From assembly GCF_000147355.1 (NCBI RefSeq), contig NC_014506.1, positions 496,001 to 560,000 of the forward strand: a stretch of DNA of 64,000 nucleotides, given 5' to 3'. Under the pieces are notes generated by a model. It was given only the letters and a program-made list of their open reading frames with translations, did not search any database and had not been told where the DNA came from. This document shows, one piece after another, positions 6,593 to 50,471 of the stretch. Position numbers and translations under genes: made by a program. Every line of letters begins with the position of its first letter. The stretch's first letter is position 1. This DNA is from Sulfurimonas autotrophica DSM 16294 (GTDB lineage Bacteria; Campylobacterota; Campylobacteria; Campylobacterales; Sulfurimonadaceae).

Positions 6593-6634
6593 TTTTCGGA
6601 AGCAAGGTTTCAACCTTGCTTCCGAAGAGCAAAC
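6593..6634. repeat. Modular palindromic intergenic repeat, copy 1 (short form)
   Basis: TTCGGAAGCAAGGTT (6595-6609) and its perfect reverse complement (6612-6626) are separated by TC, a 15-bp stem, followed by GAGCAAAC. This equals copy 3 (50388-50471) with a 41-nt internal module absent. It lies between the convergent doxX and phosphatidyltransferase genes and could serve as a bidirectional terminator. Confidence 0.85.
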
Positions 6635-17535: not shown

Positions 17536-18240
17536 ATGATAATTGCAGCGAATTTGAAAACAAACCTTACAAGAAGTGCGACACATGAGTATATAAAACA
17601 ATTGCAAACATGTGTACAAAACAGTTCACAAGAGGTTCTGGTTTTTCCTGCAACATCATCACTTGACGGTTATGACACAAAGATAACTATCGGAGCGCAA
17701 AATGCCTACCCTGTAGAGCATGGTGCTTTTACCGGGGAAATAGGACTTGATCATTTAAACGAGTTTGGAATTAAAACTATACTTATAGGACATAGTGAAC
17801 GTCGTCATATTTTAGGTGAGAGTCAAGAATTTATAGCAAAAAAGTTCGATTATTTTAAAGAACAGGGTTTTAAAATCGTTTATTGTGTGGGTGAGCCTCT
17901 TGCAGTGAGGGAGTCCTCAAAAGAAGAAATGCTTACATATATATATAATCAATATGAAGGTATCGACACGGAGTATGAAAACCTAGTTATTGCGTATGAA
18001 CCTGTATGGGCAATAGGCACGGGAAAAGTACCGACACTAGAAGATATACAAGACATACATAAAGAGCTGAAGAAAAAATCATCCGCACCGCTTTTATATG
18101 GAGGAAGTGTCAAAGTAAACAATGTCAAAGATATTTTGAAAGTAGAAAATGTTGATGGTGTTTTAGTAGGAAGTGCGGCTCTGTATGCAGACCACTTTTG
18201 CTCCATGATACAAGCAGCAGAGGAATTAGGAAAAAACTAA
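17536..18240 (+). CDS. tpiA: Triosephosphate isomerase
   Basis: 234 residues, a little short, as in other Campylobacterota. Catalytic residues: Lys in ANLKTN, His in LIGHSERRH and Glu in AYEPVWAIGTG; the phosphate loop is LLYGGSVKVNN. It interconverts DHAP and GAP. It lies directly behind pgk and upstream of fabI, the tpi-fabI order known from H. pylori. Confidence 0.96.
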   Translation: MIIAANLKTNLTRSATHEYIKQLQTCVQNSSQEVLVFPATSSLDGYDTKITIGAQNAYPVEHGAFTGEIGLDHLNEFGIKTILIGHSERRHILGESQEFIAKKFDYFKEQGFKIVYCVGEPLAVRESSKEEMLTYIYNQYEGIDTEYENLVIAYEPVWAIGTGKVPTLEDIQDIHKELKKKSSAPLLYGGSVKVNNVKDILKVENVDGVLVGSAALYADHFCSMIQAAEELGKN

Positions 18241-18274
18241 ATTTTTTCTGTAACCTTGCCTCTTGAGTCTTTAA

Positions 18275-19126
<852 letters not shown>

Positions 19127-22046: not shown

Positions 22047-22055
22047 GGAACTCGG

Positions 22056-22156
22056 GGGCTGTGTTGCTTGAAAGACGTACAGTCCTAGGTTCCGAAAAAC
22101 ATTCTCTTCGGAAGCAAGGTTTTAACCTTGCCTTTTAGGCTTTAGAGACACACAAC
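22056..22156. repeat. Modular palindromic intergenic repeat, copy 2 (rearranged)
   Basis: The right half contains TTCGGAAGCAAGGTT (22107-22121) and AACCTTGC (22124-22131), followed by a version of the module seen in copy 3 (...TTTTAGGCTTTAGAGACACAC). The left half carries GGCTGTGTTGCTTGAAAG, which resembles that module in reverse orientation, then CCTAGGTTCCGAA. The element lies between the convergent permease and nusA genes. Confidence 0.75.
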
Positions 22157-50387: not shown

Positions 50388-50471
50388 TTTTTCGGAAGCA
50401 AGGTTTCAACCTTGCCTTTAGGCTTTCAAGATACACAGCCTAGGTTAAAACCTAGGTTCCGAAGAGCAAGC
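50388..50471. repeat. Modular palindromic intergenic repeat, copy 3 (long form)
   Basis: TTCGGAAGCAAGGTT (50391-50405), TC, AACCTTGC (50408-50415), then a 41-nt module (50416-50456) ending in the perfect hairpin CCTAGGTT-AA-AACCTAGG, then TTCCGAAGAGCAAGC. The outer TTCGGAA/TTCCGAA pair closes the structure. It lies in the gpmI-fabG gap. Confidence 0.85.

Follow-up and report, generated by a model that had tools for sequence, protein, structure and literature searches.

The palindromic repeats in the 64,000-nt window analysed here (positions 496001-560000 of the single 2,153,198-bp contig of Sulfurimonas autotrophica, a marine, sulfur-oxidising bacterium) belong to a small family of repetitive extragenic palindromes (REPs), whose spread is probably due to a single transposase gene at another place in the genome. 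The 41-nt module by which two of them differ comprises the spacer and one REP of a two-REP unit (REPIN), and its loss yields the already described double-foot form. We put the probability of the complete reading, a REP/REPIN family moved by a RAYT with copy 1 produced by central deletion of an inverted pair, at about 0.88.

In each REP an unpaired foot, here TTCGGAA, with GGAA as its last four bases, precedes a hairpin that has an 8-bp stem and a 2-nt loop, and two inverted REPs 23-24 nt apart constitute a REPIN, of which copy 3 is one (Table 1). The left part of copy 3 is that of copy 1, with the foot TTCGGAA 5' of an 18-nt hairpin A (GCAAGGTT-TC-AACCTTGC); the 41-nt module comes next, and then TTCCGAAGAGCAA. 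The module ends with the 18-nt hairpin B (CCTAGGTT-AA-AACCTAGG), after which the inverted foot TTCCGAA follows. Copy 1 reads TTCGGAA-GCAAGGTT-TC-AACCTTGC-TTCCGAA, a perfect inverted repeat with both feet included, and because it retains two feet and one hairpin, the module equates to a spacer and one hairpin. The first-pass annotation had described copies 1 and 3 as related and the module as exactly missing from copy 1, and both statements stand; its proposal that a module was gained or lost is best read as the loss of one REPIN hairpin with its spacer, and not as movement of a separate cassette. The genuine extra module of this REP family is a different sequence of 44-47 nt, inserted into the hairpin loop. 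Copy 2 (approximately 22050-22156) was fairly described as rearranged and partly inverted, since it combines an intact hairpin with a lone arm, CCTAGGTTCCGAA, which has oppositely oriented spacer-like sequence on its left. Two partial REPs meet in copy 2 as neighbouring units do in an array, with one unit truncated; the truncated REP and the whole REP stand foot to foot. A degraded fourth copy was overlooked when three were listed for the window. Single-strand folding did not give copy 3 a clear three-way junction, and Rfam had no match at the window repeats.

Table 1. Repeat features in the window (w) and elsewhere on the contig (c), with the transposase gene.
Feature	Position	Strand	Parts and basis
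Copy 1, double-foot REP	w 6595..6626	.	foot TTCGGAA 6595-6601; hairpin 6602-6619; inverted foot TTCCGAA 6620-6626; sequence and genome matches; classed double-foot
Copy 2, left: single arm with foot of truncated REP	w 22084..22096	-	sequence, pattern match
Copy 2, right: REP	w 22107..22156	+	foot 22107-22113; hairpin 22114-22131; spacer remnant; sequence; model match c 518109-518131
Copy 3, complete REPIN	w 50391..50463	.	foot 50391-50397; hairpin A 50398-50415; spacer 50416-50438; hairpin B 50439-50456; inverted foot 50457-50463; sequence; both hairpins matched by covariance model; REPIN class
41-nt module without counterpart in copy 1	w 50416..50456	.	spacer 23 nt, hairpin B 18 nt
Degraded fourth REP copy	w ~18226..18275	+	right half of nested loop insert; right arm AACCTTGC 18252-18259; spacer-like tail
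Nested insert	c 454189-454235, 1470502-1470548, 1494365-1494411, 1504868-1504914, 1898491-1898537, others		window remnant w 18226-18251
Perfect palindrome TTCGGAACCTAGGTTCCGAA	c 323517-323536		
RAYT gene, 168 aa	c 1499991-1500494	-	sole PF01797 gene of the genome
REPIN on one side of RAYT gene	c 1499893-1499966		
REPs on other side of RAYT gene	c 1500541-1500597		

Match counts rule out chance as the source of the repeats. Where 0.00 matches to TTCGGAAGCAAGGTTTCAACCTTGC with 3 mismatches or fewer would be expected in the window, there are 4, and the genome has 14 sites with GCAAGGTTNNAACCTTGC but none with its reversed pattern. The related stems CCTAGGTT, CCCAGGTT and CCCAGACT are attached to the same foot in their genome matches, and GCTC is a frequent 5' flank of TTCGGAA. 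A covariance model of foot plus hairpin returned 42 matches in the genome (counted at E up to 1; the weakest few may be chance), 34 of which lie outside reading frames of at least 120 aa, compared with about 8% of random positions; pair counts in this model lean toward the GGAA foot and the paired structure, because the training hairpins were chosen for both. Short palindromes in many copies at mainly intergenic positions are what is seen of a REP family, here at a copy number that is low for one. The REP/MITE-like identity first proposed for the repeats, which had been made to depend on further genomic copies and on conserved module boundaries, is supported by about 40 REPs, mostly intergenic, by a distance between the feet that stays at 59-60 nt in the two-hairpin units, and by a single RAYT gene with REPs on either side.

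That gene, which the first-pass annotation had suggested looking for, is the only Y1_Tnp/RAYT gene of the genome and matches PF01797 at 46 bits (cut-off 23); its best NCBIfam match is the equivalog REP_Tyr_transpos at 68.9 bits, under the cut-off of 80, which counts against the RAYT reading. The encoded protein carries the HUH and single catalytic-tyrosine motifs and a Y1_Tnp domain: N89, H90, H92, Y146, Y148 and N152 are invariant in an alignment of 23 homologs, NHIH is present, YIKNN is followed by A or P, and the conserved W lacks a following Q in most homologs. An AlphaFold model built with those 23 homologs has a pLDDT of 90.6, and the best PDB match of the predicted fold (E 3.8e-7) is 4er8, a complex of the E. 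coli RAYT with a REP hairpin. The gene is flanked by its own REPs rather than by IS ends, as it is in most relatives. The surrounding ~11 kb (L060, contig 1494243-1504927), which holds sugar-nucleotide/glycosylation-type genes, is unusually dense in REPs. Two of these (contig 1495966-1496074, L060:5966-6074) lie in frame within a 320-aa nucleotidyl-transferase frame that we read as galU-like, to which they apparently add residues.

A RAYT of the same clade is present in approximately 25 of 135 Sulfurimonas genomes, as well as in Sulfurovum, other Campylobacterales, Psychromonas and one Alcanivoracaceae MAG. These homologs, some of them gammaproteobacterial, have REPs of their own. Their surroundings were scanned for each of the 256 tetranucleotides standing before a hairpin with an 8-bp stem and a 2-nt loop. 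GGAA had 139 hairpin matches, against a mean of 1.8 over the 256 tetranucleotides and 0-1 in each of 20 shuffles; the 139 count some hairpins repeatedly because some scanned loci overlap or are duplicates, although the contrast is too large to hinge on that. GTAG and GTGG ranked outside the top twelve. Stems in the relatives are genome-specific and the base preceding GGAA varies, whereas the GGAA foot, the 8-bp stem and the 2-nt loop are constant. At least 4 REP matches were found in 19 of the 25 genomes with a RAYT and in 19 of the 110 without (Fisher p 3e-8), a comparison for which the threshold of 4 was set after the counts were known, at most 59 candidates were scored per genome, and genomes were treated as independent of kinship. 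A point against the model is that some complete genomes hold REPs without a RAYT of the clade; one of them, G009, has 48 REP matches, which we can explain only by an assumed loss of the gene. Longer AT-rich flanks, for example ATTCAAAACTAATTTTTATTTTATT preceding the foot, are common to several REPINs (L152, L153 and L161 in G092; L073 in G000, near 2143319), perhaps as parts of a larger repeat carrying the REPIN. Sequence like CAATGCCATTAAGTTAAG, possibly the terminus of a further inserted element, recurs beside or inside REP arms of several relatives (L152, L153, L157, L165, L195-L198, L236).

The sites themselves differ between genomes. At the site of copy 1 the REP is absent from two relatives (G011, G130); a different REPIN occupies it in G092, REPs of their own type in G018 and G010, and a tandem array in G069. 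The site of copy 2 is empty in G011 and holds REPs in G018, G010 and G069. These comparisons of filled and empty sites show differences and imply no direction of gain or loss on a tree. An 89-bp tandem REP array is also seen in G092. The site differences bear on the proposal that the hairpins are non-mobile, selected transcription terminators or mRNA 3'-end stabilisers at gene ends, effects that REPs elsewhere in bacteria can have on the side (PMC3733652). Such a role would suit the mostly intergenic positions and the placement of copies 1 and 2 between convergent genes (DoxX-family and CDP-alcohol phosphatidyltransferase; ABC permease and nusA). Here the earlier statement that all copies lie just behind genes needs a nuance, as copy 3 sits between the co-directional genes iPGM and a short-chain reductase. 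A search for an intrinsic terminator at copy 1 found neither a T-run nor a terminator-like site. With the same intergenic sites empty in G011 and G130, or filled by unrelated stems or arrays, and with genome-specific stems whose foot, which a terminator would not need, is kept around RAYT genes, we consider a purely regulatory role very improbable.

Still more improbable is the reading of the repeats as MITEs that derive from an ordinary insertion sequence with no relation to the RAYT. They are indeed short, palindromic and interspersed, and missing at orthologous sites in some relatives, but where an IS would have terminal inverted repeats they have an asymmetric foot and subterminal 8-bp/2-nt hairpins, and in many genomes matching genome-specific stems tie them directly to RAYT genes. 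Taken together, the flanking REPs, the RAYT fold, the foot conserved in relatives and the site differences identify the system as REP/RAYT with a GGAA foot in place of the described GTAG/GTGG.

REP, BIME and REPIN systems with a RAYT (TnpA-REP) in E. coli and Pseudomonas (PMC2817692, PMC3116915, PMC6006769) share with this one the footed hairpins, inverted pairs and tandem arrays, the intergenic location, the single RAYT gene flanked by REPs and the HUH-Y fold nearest 4er8. They differ in that the foot here is GGAA on an 8-bp stem with a 2-nt loop, present in tens rather than hundreds of copies; with TTCGGAA, the foot is outside the GTAG superfamily as defined by GTAG or GTGG. The residue after the conserved W, Q95 in the E. 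coli RAYT and a reported GTAG contact there, is A, S, Q, E, L, D or V in this clade. Subclass 2.4 of TnpA-REP, with the motifs NH[IFV]H, WQ and YIxNNP, is associated with GT[AG]G-footed long or double-foot REPs (PMC6006769); in the double-foot ones, as in copy 1, feet stand on both sides of a single hairpin, with the sequences GT[AG]G and C[TC]AC there in contrast to TTCGGAA and TTCCGAA here. We also considered CGTC-tagged REPs and class 3 TnpA-Y1 (PMC6006769), which likewise has a non-GTAG foot, of the form CnGA that CGGA fits, and rejected the assignment: class 3 proteins carry NHVH and YVxxEQ whereas this RAYT has NHIH and YIKNN, and in relatives the constant GGAA is preceded by varying bases. 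GGAA-footed REPs were nowhere described in the open-licence literature searched, in which the only paper to pair Sulfurimonas with REPs concerned a repeat-counting tool. REP/RAYT co-evolution is hereby extended to a clade with a shared non-GTAG foot, and foot recognition becomes directly testable, since the same fold meets another tetranucleotide and many stem variants in some 25 related genomes.

We infer that the RAYT recognises GGAA, that the REPs are mobilised in trans and that copy 1 arose by deletion. The hairpins would be recognised as single-stranded DNA by the sole Y1 HUH transposase, with the GGAA foot as a guide, and REPINs would be cut and rejoined by it and thereby spread in trans to intergenic sites. 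Because each hairpin is nearly its own reverse complement, an inverted pair of REPs is at the same time a pair of direct repeats; a deletion between them, whether by slippage, recombination or RAYT excision, would remove one hairpin and the spacer, approximately 41 nt, and leave a double-foot REP such as copy 1. A central deletion of an inverted dimer has already been proposed for the double-foot REPs of subclass 2.4 (PMC6006769).

The strongest competitor to this last step, though in our estimate still an unlikely one, is that copy 1 never had the module, and that fold-back (template-switch) repair turned a single REP into a perfect palindrome by copying one arm and foot to the other side. 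Copy 1 is a perfect inverted repeat down to both feet, TTCGGAACCTAGGTTCCGAA is a second perfect palindrome in this genome, and fold-back accounts directly for both arms of copy 1 being of type A. A deletion through the hairpin centres of an A-B REPIN like copy 3 would give unlike arms, so that copy 1 would descend from an A-A' pair, a type not found in this genome, unless fold-back repair made its arms match at a later stage. On the other side, the hexamer GAGCAA follows the right foot identically in copies 1 and 3, and, GCTC being a common 5' flank of REPs, this fits a right foot derived from a second REP. Moreover, G092 contains a hybrid double-foot REP, TTCGGAATCTAGGTTAAAACCTTGCTTCCGAA, as the deletion predicts, which shows that central deletion occurs, and G073 holds a copy-1-like form. 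Copy 1 is thus best read as a double-foot REP from central deletion of an inverted pair; this supplies a concrete origin for double-foot REPs, alongside natural empty and filled sites.

The genuine extra module is a 44-47-nt, two-hairpin insert with the core ACTTAGAAAAAAACTAAATTTTTTTCTG, located at a fixed place in the hairpin loops of REPs with about 10 different stems and present in several Sulfurimonas genomes. In 40 of 75 distinct contexts of this core the flanking arms pair at 7 or more of 8 positions, and several of the others are decayed REPs. At one orthologous site the insert is present in G000 but missing from G092. Copies of the core are found outside REPs as well, some of them in genomes that have no RAYT of the clade. 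Second elements within REPs are known from REP-targeting insertion sequences (ISPpu9, IS621, IS1397; PMC1525189, PMC8450116); unlike these, the nested insert is 44-47 nt long, gene-less and made of two hairpins. It had no match in Rfam, and neither the REP nor the nested core had an exact match in viral contigs. We tentatively suggest, with somewhat more doubt than conviction, that the insert is a hyperparasite of REPs that enters the 2-nt loop of GGAA-footed REPs with many stem types across Sulfurimonas, by means of another transposase or of the RAYT itself. If so, one tiny mobile element rides inside another, and the nested loop element may show how REPs themselves become parasitised. Outside REPs, the same A7-CTAAA-T7 core was seen after a variable stem with a TAAA loop (near position 1504 of L172, L176, L177, L183, L186, L187, L188 and L193), in genomes both with and without a RAYT of the clade.
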